Assembly (NCBI GenBank): GCA_944325145.1
Contig: CALYDL010000004.1
Span: 1-64,000 of the forward strand
Direction: 5' to 3'
DNA: 64,000 nt
Origin: Candidatus Gastranaerophilales bacterium
Lineage (GTDB): Bacteria > Cyanobacteriota > Vampirovibrionia > Gastranaerophilales > Gastranaerophilaceae
Shown: piece after piece, positions 13,918 to 26,272 of the stretch
Position numbering within the stretch: position 1 is the stretch's first letter
Layout of the letters: each line of letters begins with the position of its first letter
Translations under genes and position numbers: made by a program
Notes under the pieces: generated by a model
Seen by the model: only the letters and a program-made list of their open reading frames with translations
The model's database searches: none
What the model was told of the DNA's origin: nothing

Positions 13918-14474
13918 ATACATTTATAAAAACATTCATTGTAACTTTTATTATATGTGCAGTATATTTTATTTACGCTTTTATTGGCAAAGAAAGCTAT
14001 TCTCCAACACTAAAGCCAAACAACACATCAATTAATAAAACCGTTGAAACAAAACAAAAGCCCATAAACGAGCCTGAAGTTACAATTTGCCTTATAAATG
14101 CCGATAATAAACCCGTTTTAGTTAAAAGAAAAGCAGAAATTAACACTCTTCAAAATGCACTAACTGAACTTATGAAAGGCTCTAAAAGAGAAGAAAGGCT
14201 TCAAGGTGCATATACAGAAATTCCACAAGGCACAAAGCTTTTATCTCTTAAAGATGACGGAGACAAAATTGCCCTAAATTTATCAAAAGAATTTGAAGGC
14301 GGCGGCGGCGCACAATCAATTCAAGCAAGGCTTTTACAATTAGTTAAAACGGTTAATGCATATGCTGAAAATAAGCCTGTTTATCTTTATATTGAAGGCA
14401 AAAAAATTGAATATTTAGGCGGCGAAGGCATTTATGTAGAGCAGCCCTTAAACGAAGAAACTCTTAAACTCTAA
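13914..14474 (+). CDS. membrane-anchored GerMN-domain protein
   Basis: 186 aa. One N-terminal membrane helix (about residues 5-27), then a linker, then a GerMN-type domain (about 52-175) recognisable from LQNALTELMKGSKREE, PQGTKLLSLKDDGDKIALNLS and QARLLQLVKTV. GerMN domains occur in spore germination protein GerM and in many non-sporulating bacteria and cyanobacteria, usually facing the cell envelope; the exact role is unknown. It overlaps truB by 4 bases (ATGA) and meets the next gene tail to tail with a 4-base overlap. Confidence 0.75.
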   Translation: MNTFIKTFIVTFIICAVYFIYAFIGKESYSPTLKPNNTSINKTVETKQKPINEPEVTICLINADNKPVLVKRKAEINTLQNALTELMKGSKREERLQGAYTEIPQGTKLLSLKDDGDKIALNLSKEFEGGGGAQSIQARLLQLVKTVNAYAENKPVYLYIEGKKIEYLGGEGIYVEQPLNEETLKL

Positions 14475-14794
14475 GCGGCATAAATTCTTTGAATGTTAGA
14501 TTGAATCATCTGATCGCAAGAGCCATATTCAGCTTCAATTAATTGCAATTGAGTTTGAATTTTGGTTAATTGCTCATCTAACCTTTTATCAACCTGATTA
14601 AGCCTTTCAATTCTTTGCTGCAGGGTTTTAGCTTCAGGGCTGTCTGCTTCATAATCATTTTGCGACATCTGATAATCAGAAATTTTTCCTGCTAAATCAG
14701 ACTTAGCACGGTTGATTACCATAAGCTTATGTTCATAAGCGAACCTTTGGCTATTCAATTGTACTTTTCTTGCTATGGCAATTAAAAGACCCAT
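14471..14794 (-). CDS. short member of conserved-ends helical family (no variable middle)
   Basis: 107 aa, almost wholly helical and predicted coiled coil. Residues 1-45 (MGLLIAIARKVQLNSQRFAYE) follow the pattern of the paralogs at 16210 and 17497 (MGMAASQARFLSLTARKS). Its last about 43 residues align without gaps to the ends of those proteins: ERLNQVDKRLDEQLTKIQTQ against EALQQEDRTLELRLKQLDTE. The large central region of the paralogs is absent. It starts 3 bases after the stop of the upstream gene, so it is coupled to it, and both follow a sigma-28-like promoter at 15186-15213. No signal peptide. Function unknown; family membership is inferred by eye. Confidence 0.65.
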   Translation of the reverse strand: MGLLIAIARKVQLNSQRFAYEHKLMVINRAKSDLAGKISDYQMSQNDYEADSPEAKTLQQRIERLNQVDKRLDEQLTKIQTQLQLIEAEYGSCDQMIQSNIQRIYAA

Positions 14795-14797
14795 TGA

Positions 14798-15067
14798 TTA
14801 TCTCGTTTCGTTAAATTTTCTACCTCTTAGAAAAACATGATCGTTGTTTGCCGCAATCAGTTTTTCCATTTGTTTCAGCTTGCCTATCTGATAATTAAGC
14901 CTGTATTTCACCAACTTCTGCTTTTTTCTAATCGTAAGAATATCTTTAATTGAGGCAACCGTGCCGTCAATCATAGCTTTTATCGGGTTGTGGCGAATGA
15001 AATAGTTCTTCGTGAACCCTAAAAACTTTTGTATTCTTTTGATGTTTGCAGAAATCACTTCATGCAC
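14798..15067 (-). CDS. small basic protein of unknown function
   Basis: 89 aa starting with GTG at 15067, set by AAGGAG with 7-base spacing. The sequence is Lys/Arg/Ile-rich and mostly helical with no membrane segment or known motif. It is first in a two-gene unit with the short conserved-ends protein. Its small size, charge and coupling to an exported-looking helical protein would fit a dedicated chaperone or partner, but that is a guess. Confidence 0.6.
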   Translation of the reverse strand: MHEVISANIKRIQKFLGFTKNYFIRHNPIKAMIDGTVASIKDILTIRKKQKLVKYRLNYQIGKLKQMEKLIAANNDHVFLRGRKFNETR

Positions 15068-15185
15068 GAGCTTACTCCTTTAGTCAGGGGCAAACCTAAC
15101 TTAGTAAAAACGAAAGATATTCAAAAATTGCCTATTTTTGTCAAATGTTAAGAAATATGAAAAAAGATTTCTTATCTAATAGTAT

Positions 15186-15213
15186 ATATCGGATAAAAAA
15201 CCTGTTCACTTTA
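15186..15213 (-). promoter_or_regulatory. sigma-28-like promoter (TAAAGTGA-N12-TCCGATAT)
   Basis: Read on the minus strand, TAAAGTGA (15213-15206), 12-bp spacer, TCCGATAT (15193-15186). The known FliA/sigma-28 consensus is TAAAGTTT-N11-GCCGATAA. It drives the pair 14798-15067 and 14471-14794. Here the leader to the GTG is long, about 110-120 bases, unlike the other four sites. Confidence 0.55.
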
Positions 15214-15248
15214 AAAAAAATATTTATTGTTACAAATCTTTAAAAAAG

Positions 15249-16061
15249 TTAGCTGATATCCGAAATAGCATCGTTATCGCTTTCAATGCCATCCTTTAAT
15301 GATTGTCTTACAATGTCTGCTTGTGTATCAAGCATTTTAACAACGGTTTCTATGTTTCTTACTTTATTTGAAAGAATAGCATCGGCATTTGTTGTAACTC
15401 TGCCCGTTAAGTTTTGATATGCGCTCAATGCAGCAGAACCCGTGCCTTCAAATAAGTTACCTGCAACAATAGCAGCTAAACCCGATGTCCCTAAGTATGG
15501 CGCCATAGATTGCATAATGCCGCCTAAGCCTGAAATTAAACCTGCAGTTGGCAGAATAATTGTTTCACCAAAATTAAAACCTGTGCTCACAAGCCCTGCG
15601 CCATAAGATGCGGCAGATAAACCTGCAACCGTTGAAGCACTTGCAGCACCGCCTGTCATAACACCGGCAGCGCCCCCTGTTACAGAGCCTAAGCCCCAGC
15701 TAACCGGTGCAGCACCTGATGGGAACCCCGGAAATGAACCGATTGAGCCTATACCAAACGAATTATTGGAACCGTAAAAAGAACTTGTAGCACCTGTTAC
15801 AGGCGACCAATAAGAAGTACCCGGGATATTATATGTTGAATTACCGCCAAAAACAGGCGAAAAACTTGATGGCGAAAACATGCTGGCTAACTGCCACAAA
15901 AAACCGCCCGCAGTTCCAAACCCTGAACCGGTTGCTGTGGAACCCGAAACAGTAATATCTCTTAATCTGTCATAGGTTTCGTACAATTCAGCTTTTGCAA
16001 GAGAACTTGCGGAACCAAACTTGTTTGCAATAACTAATTCATGGTCATTTTTGTAAGACAT
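15249..16061 (-). CDS. Gly/Ala/Ser-rich hydrophobic protein of unknown function
   Basis: 270 aa; ATG at 16061 with AAAGG 8 bases upstream. Residues 1-40 are polar and helical (MSYKNDHELVIANKF). Residues about 42-120 are rich in Gly, Ser, Phe and Tyr. Residues about 125-215 are rich in Gly/Ala and hydrophobic, with segments able to enter a membrane (VTGGAAGVMTGGAAS, ILPTAGLISGLGGIM). The C-terminal 50 residues are again polar and helical. No signal peptide. The plan resembles pore-forming or translocator-like proteins, but no family is recognised. It stands between conserved-ends family genes on the same strand. Confidence 0.6.
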   Translation of the reverse strand: MSYKNDHELVIANKFGSASSLAKAELYETYDRLRDITVSGSTATGSGFGTAGGFLWQLASMFSPSSFSPVFGGNSTYNIPGTSYWSPVTGATSSFYGSNNSFGIGSIGSFPGFPSGAAPVSWGLGSVTGGAAGVMTGGAASASTVAGLSAASYGAGLVSTGFNFGETIILPTAGLISGLGGIMQSMAPYLGTSGLAAIVAGNLFEGTGSAALSAYQNLTGRVTTNADAILSNKVRNIETVVKMLDTQADIVRQSLKDGIESDNDAISDIS

Positions 16062-16140
16062 AACTTGAACCTTTATTAATAGCTAACCTACTACATTTTA
16101 AGACAATATTTAAAGATTAAAATCAGCCAAATAAAGTATG

Positions 16141-16180
16141 AAAAAATTCCAAAAGCTTAATTTGGCCTTTGGAATTTTTT
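16141..16180 (-). terminator. rho-independent terminator after the 369-aa gene
   Basis: Perfect 13-bp stem AAAAAATTCCAAA (16141-16153) with TTTGGAATTTTTT (16168-16180), loop of 14. It has T-rich arms on both strands and lies just past the stop at 16210 of the minus-strand gene. Confidence 0.75.
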
Positions 16181-16209
16181 TAATGATTTTTTGTTAAAAG
16201 TCAAAAATA

Positions 16210-17319
16210 TTATGCGAATGTTTTGAAGGTAGATTCAACGTTATCTTCAACAACTTTTTGAACTGCATCCATTTCTGTTGCGATTGCATTTTGTTCAGTA
16301 TCAAGTTGTTTAAGTTCAAGTTCTAAAGTTTTATCTTTTGCTTGAATTTCTTCTGTTTTAGAGTTGATGTTTGAAACGTTCTTTTCATATCTTGCTTGTT
16401 CATATTCATAATCAAGCATTGCTTGAGCGTATGCATCTTCATCTTGAACAGAAACGCATTCCAGTTCATAAGTATATTCATCGCCATCTACTTCAATTGT
16501 AATTGAAGTTGTTCTGCCTGTGTCGTTTTCTTCATATCTTGTAATAGGAATTTCTTCCGTAATAGTTTTTGAAGCTGCATAAATTGAAGACAATGCACCA
16601 ATTGTTTCATATTTTTCTTCAATTGAACCATCCGGCCTTTGGTTTGGAACTTTTGTAAGCTGGCTGTTTGTGAAGTAATATTTTTTGCCGTTAATCATTG
16701 AATATGCAAGGTAGTTTGTAGGAACACCATCGCCATCAAAGTCATAGCTTGAAATATAATCTGTTGAATTTTTGTTATCGCCATTAAGTGCATCTAAAGT
16801 AGATTGGTTTGAATTAACTTCTTCAAGATAAACGGCATAGGTGTTATCGCCTGAATTAAAGAGCATGCCTGATAAAATGCCGCCATTTACGTTATATGCA
16901 TCAGAATAATTTGGGCTGTCTGTTGAATCGTAGTCTGTAACAGTGCCCGGTGCATAATCGCTTAATGTATCATCTTTAATGCTGCCTGTAATAAATTCAG
17001 CTTTGTTTTGATAAACGTTAACCGAATGTGAAACGGTAGCAACGGTGCCATCAGGTGTTTCTTTTATGTTATCAAGTGAATATGTGATGTAACCGTTTGC
17101 AGATGATATTTTATTACTTGAGAATGTATATTGAGTTTTGTAGAAATCTGAAGTATCAGGTGGAGTTGGTACATCCATCTTGCTTAATTGAGAATACAAG
17201 TTAGAGCTTTCATTAGCCAAGGCTGTTCTTTCTTGGTTAATTTGTTGACCTTCATATTCTGTATTGGATTTTCTTGCCGTCAAAGATAAAAATCTTGCTT
17301 GGCTTGCTGCCATACCCAT
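16210..17319 (-). CDS. conserved-ends/variable-middle helical protein, paralog 1
   Basis: 369 aa; AAGGAG 10 bases before the ATG. Residues 1-45 (MGMAASQARFLSLTARKS..., then EGQQINQERTAL) are nearly identical to the 448-aa neighbour at 17497. So are the last about 75 residues, from LDYEYEQARYEK to EDNVESTFKTFA. Both ends are helical with heptad-like spacing, likely pairing as a coiled coil. The middle (about 55-290) is Ser/Thr/Asp/Tyr-rich, probably beta-rich, and diverges strongly between paralogs. No signal peptide. This is the plan of flagellin and other axial proteins, though no flagellin motif is seen. A sigma-28-like promoter lies at 17359-17386. Function unknown. Confidence 0.75.
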   Translation of the reverse strand: MGMAASQARFLSLTARKSNTEYEGQQINQERTALANESSNLYSQLSKMDVPTPPDTSDFYKTQYTFSSNKISSANGYITYSLDNIKETPDGTVATVSHSVNVYQNKAEFITGSIKDDTLSDYAPGTVTDYDSTDSPNYSDAYNVNGGILSGMLFNSGDNTYAVYLEEVNSNQSTLDALNGDNKNSTDYISSYDFDGDGVPTNYLAYSMINGKKYYFTNSQLTKVPNQRPDGSIEEKYETIGALSSIYAASKTITEEIPITRYEENDTGRTTSITIEVDGDEYTYELECVSVQDEDAYAQAMLDYEYEQARYEKNVSNINSKTEEIQAKDKTLELELKQLDTEQNAIATEMDAVQKVVEDNVESTFKTFA

Positions 17320-17358
17320 ATTTGTATGTCTCCTTATCAGTTCCTTGTTATGTAATTT

Positions 17359-17386
17359 ATATCGGTAAACAAATTTAAAAACTTTA
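17359..17386 (-). promoter_or_regulatory. sigma-28-like promoter (TAAAGTTT-N12-ACCGATAT)
   Basis: Minus strand: TAAAGTTT (17386-17379), an exact match to the FliA -35 consensus, 12-bp spacer, ACCGATAT (17366-17359). The ATG at 17319 lies about 40 bases past the -10 box. Confidence 0.65.
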
Positions 17387-17428
17387 GAAAAAAGAGATAA
17401 AATCTTAACATTTATTTACAAAAGAAAA

Positions 17429-17455
17429 CTGCAAGCTCAAAATATGAGTTTGCAG
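17429..17455 (-). terminator. rho-independent terminator after the 448-aa gene
   Basis: Stem CTGCAAGCTCA (17429-17439) with TGAGTTTGCAG (17445-17455), one G-U-type mismatch, loop of 5. On the minus strand it is followed by TTTTCTTTT. It separates the two paralogs, so each has its own promoter and terminator. Confidence 0.7.
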
Positions 17456-17496
17456 CAAATATCAAAATACTATGGAGATAGAGTTAATAAAGTTTA

Positions 17497-18843
17497 TTAT
17501 GCAAAGGTTTTGAATGTAGATTCAACGTTATCTTCAATAACTTTTTGAACAGCATCCATTTCTGTTGCGATTGCGTTTTGTTCTGTATCTAATTGTTTCA
17601 ATCTTAATTCAAGAGTTCTGTCTTCTTGTTGAAGTGCTTCTGTTTTAGCGTTAATATCTTGAACTTGTTTTTGGTATTGAGCTTGTTCATATTCATAATC
17701 AAGCATTGCTTGTTGGTAAGCTTCTTCATCTTGAACGGTTTGAACATCAAGTGAGAATTCATGAGTAATGCCGTTTTCATCTGTTACTGTTAATGTTTGG
17801 TATCTTCCTGTTGAAGATGTTGTAAAAATACAAGGATATGAAATCGTTTCTTGATGTCCCACGCTTTGAACGTAAGATGAACTTGAGAAATATGTTCCTT
17901 CGCCTGCTTGGTATTCGCCTGCTGTAATAAAGTATGTTTGGCCGTTTAATGTGTATGCCAAAACAGGTTGGTTGAACATTTCTTCAGTTGAGCCTTCGGG
18001 AGTATATGTTGTGAAATCTGAACCTAAATAGCTGATTGCAGAGTTTGCATTGCCGTTGTCGCTTACATATTTTCCTGAAACGTCAGCTTCATAATTTGTT
18101 CCTGTATCTGGGTCGCCTTCAATTACGCATTGATATGTGCCGTTTGATTGCAATTTTGCTTCATATGTTTGACCTGCAATTGTGCAGTTAAATTTTTCAG
18201 GGTTTTGTTTATCTTGAGTGATTGAAAGTTTAAGAGCATATTGGCCGTTTCCTAAATCTTCAACATCATAAGCGTATTGGTATTTGCCGTTTTCATCCAA
18301 ACCGCCTAAAATTTGGTCTTTTGTATCGCTTAAAACAAATTCTTCGCCTGCAATTGTAACAGAGCCTGATGATAAATCTAATGTTACATCAGCTTGGGAT
18401 GGTTGATATTTATATTCGGTTGCATCTGCAACAACACCATTTGCTAAGCTTATGCTATATTTTGTTTCGCCTGTTGCAGTGTCATATTTTGAATTAATAT
18501 CACCTGAATATGCGCTTGTTGCAGCAGCTTGCCAGTTATATGCCATATAAGAAAGATTAGCATAAGTTCCATCAGGCATTGTGTAGATGCTGTTTAAAGT
18601 ATATTCTGTTGATTCAGATGAAGAATTATCAAGTTCTGTTGTTTTGAATGTATAAACAGTTTCGTAATAATCACTTGTTGAAGGTGGAGTTGGAACTTCG
18701 ATTGATGTTAATTTATTGTATAAATTTGCACTTTCATTTGAAAGAGCTGTTCTTTGTTGGTTAACTTGTTGCCCTTCATATTCAACGTTTGATTTCCTCG
18801 CTGTCAAGGATAAAAACCTTGCCTGACTTGCCGCCATACCCAT
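17497..18843 (-). CDS. conserved-ends/variable-middle helical protein, paralog 2
   Basis: 448 aa; TGGAGA 9 bases before the ATG. It shares N-terminal residues 1-45 and the C-terminal about 75 residues (LDYEYEQAQYQK to STFKTFA) with the 369-aa neighbour. Its middle (about 55-370) is longer and unrelated in detail, rich in Gly, Thr, Ser, Tyr and Asp, with repeated short beta-like stretches (GKYQYAYDVEDLGNGQYALK). No signal peptide or membrane helix. It is preceded by its own sigma-28-like promoter (18888-18915). Likely an exported, self-assembling or surface protein by architecture; the family name is not known to me. Confidence 0.75.
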   Translation of the reverse strand: MGMAASQARFLSLTARKSNVEYEGQQVNQQRTALSNESANLYNKLTSIEVPTPPSTSDYYETVYTFKTTELDNSSSESTEYTLNSIYTMPDGTYANLSYMAYNWQAAATSAYSGDINSKYDTATGETKYSISLANGVVADATEYKYQPSQADVTLDLSSGSVTIAGEEFVLSDTKDQILGGLDENGKYQYAYDVEDLGNGQYALKLSITQDKQNPEKFNCTIAGQTYEAKLQSNGTYQCVIEGDPDTGTNYEADVSGKYVSDNGNANSAISYLGSDFTTYTPEGSTEEMFNQPVLAYTLNGQTYFITAGEYQAGEGTYFSSSSYVQSVGHQETISYPCIFTTSSTGRYQTLTVTDENGITHEFSLDVQTVQDEEAYQQAMLDYEYEQAQYQKQVQDINAKTEALQQEDRTLELRLKQLDTEQNAIATEMDAVQKVIEDNVESTFKTFA

Positions 18844-18887: not shown

Positions 18888-18915
18888 ATATCGTCATTTT
18901 TATTTTTCTACTTTA
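18888..18915 (-). promoter_or_regulatory. sigma-28-like promoter (TAAAGTAG-N12-GACGATAT)
   Basis: Minus strand: TAAAGTAG (18915-18908), 12-bp spacer, GACGATAT (18895-18888). The ATG at 18843 lies about 45 bases past the -10 box, nearly the same distance as at the 17319 gene. Confidence 0.6.
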
Positions 18916-25324: not shown

Positions 25325-26272
25325 TTATGTGATTTTTACAAAGCCTGAAAGCTTAGCGTCATTTGCGCTATAGTGCCTTGCTAGACATTGGTCTGATGTG
25401 TTACCTTCAATTGTGTCAAAGCTGCCATCAGCGTAAACTTTGGTAACAATACCTGTATGCGATGCGCCATTGCTTTGTTGTATCATAACATCACCAGGTT
25501 GAACATTATTTACAATAGTTTGAGCTCTGTTTGAACTGCCAACAACATCTATATAACAATTGTTTGACTGACCCCAAGCAGCGAGTGTTCTAACAGCTGG
25601 CGAACCAAACCCATTCAGAGATTTTCCTGTTTGTTCACATGCTTTTGTTACAACGTATGTAACAAAATCAGCGCACCAAGGTTCCGCCCTGCCGCCTGTA
25701 ACTTGCAGGTAAGAACCGTCTGTTTCATTTAATTTACCCACAAAAGATTGTGCGATTGATACAATTGTATTTCCAAAACCTGTGCCACCTGATATACCCG
25801 TGCCTGTTGTAGTTCCTGCTGTACCTGTTGTCGCCATAGCAGATGTGCCATAGGTTTGTTGAAGCGCTTGATTTTCAGCAGCCACAAGCAAGTTATAAAC
25901 ATTCATTCTGTTAGAGTTCATTGATTCTCTAACTTGCTCAATTTGCCCTTGAATAGATTGATATGAATCAAGGTCAGAAGCAGTTCCCAATTGGCTTGTG
26001 AGCGCCGACATTTGTTTTTTTAATTCTTCATATTGTTCATCCAAATATTCCATTTGGGTTAAAACTTGATCGGAAAGTTCAGTTGGAGCATCAGTTGCAG
26101 AACTATTTTCGCTATCATCTAATAGCAATTCTTGAAGCTCATCTTCGGTAATTTTTTTATCACCGTTTACATCAAAGTTTTTCAGAACTCCTTCAGAAAC
26201 TTTTTCTTCCTTCAAAATTTCATAAACTTCTTTGTTTGTAATCGTATAATTGCCGATTTTAAAATCTGTCAT
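25325..26272 (-). CDS. EF-hand protein with C-terminal CHAP domain
   Basis: 315 aa; GGAG upstream of the ATG. Residues 1-50 repeat the N-terminal module of the 64-1071 protein, with EF-hand loop DVNGDKKITEDE (34-45). Residues about 60-150 are helical and Gln/Glu-rich. A Thr/Gly-rich linker leads to a CHAP amidase domain (about 175-315) with C200 in EPWCADF, H272 in ASHTGIV and the following EGNTSD. CHAP domains cut peptidoglycan amide bonds. No Sec signal peptide. It is transcribed from the best sigma-28-like promoter in the window (26307-26333). Inferred to be a regulated cell-wall hydrolase exported by a non-Sec route. Confidence 0.75.
   Translation of the reverse strand: MTDFKIGNYTITNKEVYEILKEEKVSEGVLKNFDVNGDKKITEDELQELLLDDSENSSATDAPTELSDQVLTQMEYLDEQYEELKKQMSALTSQLGTASDLDSYQSIQGQIEQVRESMNSNRMNVYNLLVAAENQALQQTYGTSAMATTGTAGTTTGTGISGGTGFGNTIVSIAQSFVGKLNETDGSYLQVTGGRAEPWCADFVTYVVTKACEQTGKSLNGFGSPAVRTLAAWGQSNNCYIDVVGSSNRAQTIVNNVQPGDVMIQQSNGASHTGIVTKVYADGSFDTIEGNTSDQCLARHYSANDAKLSGFVKIT

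Follow-up and report, generated by a model that had tools for sequence, protein, structure and literature searches.

What kind of protein keeps both of its ends almost constant while its middle varies strongly or is missing altogether? This question is raised by three neighbouring genes in a stretch of 64,000 nucleotides from Candidatus Gastranaerophilales bacterium (assembly GCA_944325145.1, contig CALYDL010000004.1, positions 1 to 64,000; hereafter the window). The explanation that we consider best, and rather probable, is that these helical-hairpin proteins are sigma-28-controlled substrates of a second type III export machine, derived from the flagellum, flagellin-less and presumably non-motile, which we call system 2. 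They would probably serve as its axial or surface subunits. A preliminary description of the window had hinted at a link to a flagellum-type machine, for which gene neighbourhood, phylogenetic distribution and sigma-28 promoters now provide support.

The three open reading frames singled out in that description, p369, p448 and p107, lie where it had placed them, all on the minus strand. The ends of p369 and p448 are indeed nearly alike, with 38 of 45 N-terminal residues (84%) and 60 of 75 C-terminal residues (80%) identical, whereas their middles, of 235 and 314 amino acids, have diverged to 76 identities over 232 alignable positions (about 33%). The small p107 had been said to align without gaps to the same C-terminal segment. 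The match itself held, with Smith-Waterman scores of 75-99 against p448, p369 and a further member, p289, compared with shuffled means of 30-35 (standard deviation 5.5-6.7) and with none of 500 shuffles scoring as high; a profile of p107 relatives also matched the C-terminus of the family at an expectation value (E) of 2.8e-8. The alignment is gapless only against p289 (57 residues), a gap of 3-4 residues being needed against p369 and p448. The N-terminal similarity of p107, also claimed earlier, is clearer in its relatives (MGLATSQLRLMYLTAYRLDLEY). Judged by these alignments, p107 is a divergent homologue in which both ends are present and the middle is absent. The same genome encodes at least two further members, namely p289 (289 amino acids; contig 4, 79267-80133) and one of 232 amino acids on contig 45. 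The closest named record over p369 belongs to Ca. Galligastranaerophilus intestinigallinarum, its best segment being 97% identical.

The proposed plan of two terminal helices with an optional outer domain was supported by an AlphaFold model of p369, by a natural form consisting of the joined ends, and by the point at which the middle is inserted. The model, computed from 57 relatives (mean predicted local distance difference test score, pLDDT, 76.5, and above 90 across most of the ends), predicts an N-terminal helix at residues 2-47, strands at 60-107 and 244-292, and a C-terminal helix at 294-368. Residues 111-195 are poorly predicted, and the middle appears beta-rich and partly disordered. 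In the bacterial families f33, f37 and f38, the gene directly upstream of the partner gene p270 (see below) encodes 109 amino acids only (MGLAASQSRFLSLTARKNDLELTGQQINQSRLQ... turn LDPDS ...RRVDTQQQAVQTEIDAVRKVIDKNIDITFKAFA). Both p107 and the joined ends of p369 and p448 can be aligned to this short form along its whole length, and the insertion point of the middle is the hairpin turn. As three families have the middle-less form, and the bacterial family of the window has it too in p107, the simplest reading is an ancestral bare hairpin and a later gain and diversification of the outer domain. No flagellin motif had been noticed earlier, in line with a Pfam scan up to an E of 1, which gave p369 and p448 no flagellin domain; the whole genome has no Flagellin_N match either. 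In Pfam and NCBIfam scans, p369, p448, p107, p270 and p89 were assigned to no family and returned coiled-coil noise only; a PDB sequence search found no relative, and family members have no N-terminal hydrophobic signal.

Two further genes, p270 and p89, which the preliminary description had not included, form a module with p369 and p107. A family gene lies directly upstream of p270 in all 50 distinct loci fetched, a figure biased by the use of the family gene to retrieve most of them, and in 7 of 8 loci that were anchored on p270 and had enough contig. Downstream of p270, p89 is found in 34 of 48 loci and p107 in 33 of 47, the conserved block order being family gene-p270-p89-p107. The p89 alignment comprises 22 members, and p89 itself matched no Pfam family above cut-off. 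No clear transmembrane segments were found in p270, the centre of which is moderately hydrophobic.

The export machine itself became apparent from a second class of FlhA. Searches with the FHIPEP (FlhA) profile in the bacterial family of the window separated proteins of about 860 bits, in 32 genomes, from proteins of about 720 bits (FlhA2), in about 72 of 78 genomes, a count read from the printed table that includes three split by contig ends or frame. The genomes with the high-scoring class are exactly those with flagellin (32 of 78). The genome of the window, which lacks flagellin, a mark of a motile flagellum, carries only the second class, split across contigs 16 and 5. In a tree of 32 FlhA proteins, rooted at midpoint only, the second FlhA of f1, f33, f37 and f38 forms one clade (100/100), separate from flagellar FlhA; also outside this clade is the FlhA, single or second, of the families f2, f34 and f35, which are negative for the hairpin proteins. 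FlhA2 scored 705.8, below the FlhA equivalog cut-off of 772.1 (the true flagellar FlhA of a relative reached 855.4), and the FlhA2 of locus L101 scored 594.7, below the SctV equivalog cut-off of 692.25. The operon of FlhA2 encodes FliE, FliF with its flagellar C-terminal domain, a protein that we call c2, FliH and FlhA2, and in several genera additionally FliI, FlgB, FlgC, two FlgG-like rod proteins, a lytic transglycosylase and SpoIID. The flagellar-export set was thus found (FliF ring and C-terminal domains, FliE, FliH, FliI, FlgB/FlgC), with FliE above its cut-off; FliF, FlgC and FliI of system 2 score under the NCBIfam equivalog cut-offs. The c2 protein (316-359 amino acids) holds the position of FliG between FliF and FliH, and some of its 17 members show weak matches to MgtE_N, FliG_M or FliG_N (best E 0.0005-0.016). 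FlhA2, FliH, FliF and a FliE-cluster protein are encoded in the genome of the window, with FliP, FliQ and FliR elsewhere in it. No secretin gene was recognised in the system 2 loci read, a genome-wide secretin search not having been made, and no needle family was found, none having been tested. On these profile scores and gene contents, system 2 is outside the injectisome definition and outside the curated class of flagellar FlhA.

Other FlhA-related genes were observed. In f2, f34 and f35 (L140, L141, L143, L145, L146), FlhA forms a sister clade to FlhA2, and neither a hairpin-family member nor p270 was found. On contig 1 of the genome of the window (L016:10994-12442), a soluble protein of 482 amino acids contains only the FlhA cytoplasmic domain behind a unique N-terminus, and many relatives have an equivalent of about 490 amino acids; export substrates could use this protein as a second docking platform. 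Near this gene (L016:16220-18622) lies that of an 800-amino-acid coiled coil with DxDxDG calcium-binding-like motifs and no family above cut-off. In the window itself, a further possible export substrate is a protein of 315 amino acids (25325-26272, minus strand), which has an EF-hand-like motif, a coiled coil and a C-terminal CHAP hydrolase domain, and in which no signal peptide is obvious.

The distribution of the hairpin proteins follows that of FlhA2. The family profile matched all 78 genomes of the bacterial family of the window, with 2 to at least 24 matches each and often more than 10, counts that can include pieces of one gene. In a sample of the phylum it was found in 62 of 62 genomes of this bacterial family and in none of 84 others, photosynthetic cyanobacteria included; in a sample of the class it was found in all 38 genomes of this bacterial family and in 18 genomes of f33, f37 and f38, with no match in f2, f32, f34, f35 and f36. 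The partner p270 is limited to the same four bacterial families, with one gene per genome. These data bear on the idea that the hairpin proteins are axial or accessory proteins of an ordinary flagellum (hook-filament junction, cap or minor filament), persisting as leftovers in flagellin-less genomes. A flagellum-like plan, sigma-28 promoters and, in one relative (L025), a family gene adjoining FlgK/FlgL-like genes would agree with it. We nevertheless hold it to be quite unlikely, as each of the 46 flagellin-less relatives sampled has several intact copies, as the conserved block stands beside flhA2 and not beside the flagellar flhA, and as the distribution tracks FlhA2.

Within several loci and genomes (L034/L036, L065/L066, G090, G099, G104, G123), pairs of family genes had identical match scores. 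Most of these pairs are about 18-19 kb apart on one contig, that of L065/L066 being spread over two contigs, which suggests recent duplication or a repeated mobile segment.

The link between module and machine was also seen in gene order. In eight loci read, 2.4-5.8 kb separate the module from fliE-fliF-c2-fliH-flhA2, both being on the same strand. A comparison of coordinates placed p270 at most 15 kb from flhA2 in 20 of the 36 relatives that have p270, in 7 genera. For two genes that each occur once in a genome of about 2 Mb, such linkage is far above chance, although it may reflect one ancestral arrangement.

With regard to expression, the preliminary description had credited each large gene with a sigma-28-like promoter and a terminator of its own. 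The promoters were indeed found, as TAAA-N16-NNCGATA upstream of both p448 and p369 (Table 1). As for the terminators, the hairpin after p369 fits the formal definition, the regional count of such hairpins being not above chance, and that after p448 was recognised by eye only. The strict motif occurs only three times on the two strands of the window together, always in the module, a modest count (chance mean 0.70; three or more in 4 of 100 shuffles). It was found upstream of 30 of 114 family genes versus 4 of 1475 other genes (Fisher p 3.5e-32, a value that is overstated because the genes are related and not phylogenetically independent), and at other spacings it was not enriched before family genes. 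The aligned sites share an extended TAAAGTTT-N12-GCCGATA(T/A), clustered at -58 to -73, including positions that had not been searched. The sigma-28 consensus is known from enterobacteria, and the family sites carry one extra spacer base relative to the textbook Escherichia coli promoter. A FliA/WhiG sigma factor is encoded in the genome of the window (246.9 bits; curated cut-off 189.6), and a TAAAGTTT-N11/12-GCCGATAA promoter together with such a FliA factor corresponds to a sigma-28 regulon. This promoter enrichment, the matching ranges of family, p270 and FlhA2, and the repeated p270-flhA2 linkage argue against cytoplasmic or cell-envelope coiled-coil proteins that have nothing to do with export and an incidental neighbourhood. 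Export would indeed be a conjecture for any member of the family, and the block is not near the fli operon in the genome of the window and in several genera; such an interpretation seems to us improbable all the same, to much the same degree as that of flagellar leftovers.

The fliA-like sigma factor gene on contig 18 of the genome of the window (L159:9102-10838) is followed 66 bp downstream by the gene of a 276-amino-acid protein with the motif NSGDCWLISGI. By eye, this protein resembles a calpain-type cysteine peptidase, and it is possibly a co-expressed secreted protein.

Table 1. Features of the hairpin-protein module in the window.
Feature	Position	Strand	Description
p448	17497..18843	-	Family member, 448 amino acids; N- and C-terminal helix regions conserved, middle divergent
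p369	16210..17319	-	Family member, 369 amino acids; plan as in p448, with another middle
p270	15249..16061	-	Single-copy partner, Gly/Ala/Ser-rich, helical ends; directly after the family gene
p89	14798..15067	-	Small basic conserved protein, GTG start; candidate chaperone or adaptor
p107	14471..14794	-	Middle-less homologue, hairpin of both ends; last gene of the module
Sigma-28-type promoter-like site, p448	18889..18915	-	TAAA-N16-GACGATA, start -72
Sigma-28-type promoter-like site, p369	17360..17386	-	TAAAGTTT-N12-ACCGATA, start -67
Sigma-28-type promoter-like site, p89-p107 pair	15187..15213	-	TAAA-N16-TCCGATA, start -146
Terminator-like hairpin after p369	16141..16180	-	Fits the formal definition

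Several observations weigh against the proposal that the hairpin proteins are substrates of system 2. In the genome of the window, block and fli operon are not adjacent, the former lying on contig 4 and the latter on contigs 16 and 5. Seventeen FlhA2 loci were read, and the eight with the module had been picked for a nearby family gene, the other nine having none; this count being biased by the choice of loci, it was replaced by the p270-flhA2 coordinate comparison given above. Two genomes of 99% completeness (G045 and G063) have family members and no FlhA2 match, owing to an assembly gap or to a real loss. Half of the family genes lack the sigma-28 motif. Moreover, the spacer of the family promoters is 16, while flagellin promoters in relatives, used as a positive control (5 of 20 recognised), mostly have 15, and the 16-base spacing is thus not simply that of the flagellin promoter of this clade. 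In a PDB fold search, the p369 model matched flagellin filaments best, at a level that is not significant (best E 0.026, template modelling score about 0.1), and this match was therefore excluded as evidence of homology. Finally, the AlphaFold model of p270 is unreliable (mean pLDDT 41.7); with this and the lack of clear transmembrane segments, a role as translocator remains a guess.

From a mechanistic point of view, the core unit of substrates of system 2 would be a helical hairpin of 107-109 amino acids (N-helix, short turn, C-helix), of a type found among the axial proteins of both flagella and injectisomes. In the bacterial family of the window, repeated gene duplication, together with the insertion of a beta-rich, fast-changing domain at the hairpin turn, may have given rise to proteins of about 230 to 860 amino acids. 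The unfolded chain would be exported via FlhA2/FliPQR and a rod of the FlgB/C/G type, after which the two helices may be packed into an axial tube or sheath, or cap it, with the middle domain facing outward as a variable, adhesin- or antigen-like surface. The p270 protein may be exported or assembled alongside, for example as cap or translocator, and p89 may act as chaperone or adaptor.

The main alternative is an injectisome-like use of the same machine, in which the long members would be injected or released effectors, or parts of a translocon, with the ends as a secretion and chaperone-binding unit and the middles as cargo. The diversity of the middles among up to 24 or more matches per genome, their beta-rich and partly disordered character, and the neighbouring p270, with its helical ends and moderately hydrophobic centre, would be in line with this. 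Both ends are conserved including the last residues, however, which is unusual for effectors, and ten family members, nine of them long (513-856 amino acids), had no match at all in Pfam, so that no enzymatic or adhesin domain was recognised. In addition, the middle-less 109-amino-acid form would lack a cargo, and the secretin and needle results given above lend no support to an injectisome. We consider effectors unlikely on balance; both they and exported axial or surface subunits would give the so-called incomplete flagella a function.

Gastranaerophilales are common and poorly studied gut relatives of cyanobacteria. Their incomplete flagellar gene sets have been interpreted as a sign that a functional flagellum was lost, non-motility being inferred (Soo et al. 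2014, PMC4040986; PMC5877343). The organisms are those considered here, and the genes probably overlap in part with those of system 2. Since FlhA2 forms a distinct clade beside, and independent of, true flagellar FlhA and has its own conserved substrate module, these sets are not simply the product of decay. If the proposal of a substrate family of system 2 is true, the genes of incomplete flagella belong to an export machine that is both distinct and conserved, and whose family of surface or secreted proteins is very large and changes fast; it is probably through this family that the cells meet host and phages. Variable surface proteins in the style of flagellin may thus have arisen again, on a non-motile, flagellum-like secretion device. 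More tentatively, and as a possibility that we would not call probable, Vampirovibrionia may possess a type III nanomachine of a third kind, distinct from motile flagella and from injectisomes, with a 109-amino-acid hairpin as axial protein; the gut lineage would have gained hypervariable outer domains independently, with up to 20 or more paralogues per genome, as a second origin of the flagellin-type variable surface appendage. The ordered series from a middle-less hairpin in related families to insertion of the outer domain and expansion in the gut family makes the origin of flagellin-like variable domains testable. A literature search of incomplete coverage found no paper on the hairpin family, its link to a second FlhA, or its middle-less forms.

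Among known systems, flagellin comes closest in plan, its ends being conserved and its middle hypervariable and dispensable (PMC7018530). Like flagellin (FliC; PF00669/PF00700) and FlgL, the hairpin proteins combine conserved, pairing terminal helices with a removable, hypervariable middle, sigma-28 control and the lack of a signal peptide. Unlike flagellin, they have no flagellin sequence domain, their terminal helices are shorter (about 46 and 75 residues), no structural match is significant, and they occur, with many paralogues per genome, in genomes that are flagellin-less. The family is thus flagellin-like in plan and fails the sequence and structure tests for flagellin. It also resembles the injectisome needle protein SctF, which was reported to be related to FliC/FlgL (PMC3459982), and the inner rod protein SctI, in being a small helical-hairpin subunit (107-109 amino acids) encoded near a type III export system; it differs in that it has no Pfam needle match and in that needle subunits have no outer domain. 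In injectisome-like systems of Myxococcales, FliE, FlgB and FlgC were reported missing (PMC3459982). System 2, by contrast, retains FliE, FlgB, FlgC and FlgG-like rod proteins. A reduced flagellum is known from the aphid symbiont Buchnera, whose flagellar basal bodies bear no filament. System 2 shares with it a flagellum-type export and rod machine without flagellin; it differs in that most of the 32 flagellated relatives sampled have the second FlhA beside a flagellar FlhA and flagellin, and in having its own expanded substrate family. It seems most apt to class system 2 as a variant of flagellum-derived type III export.

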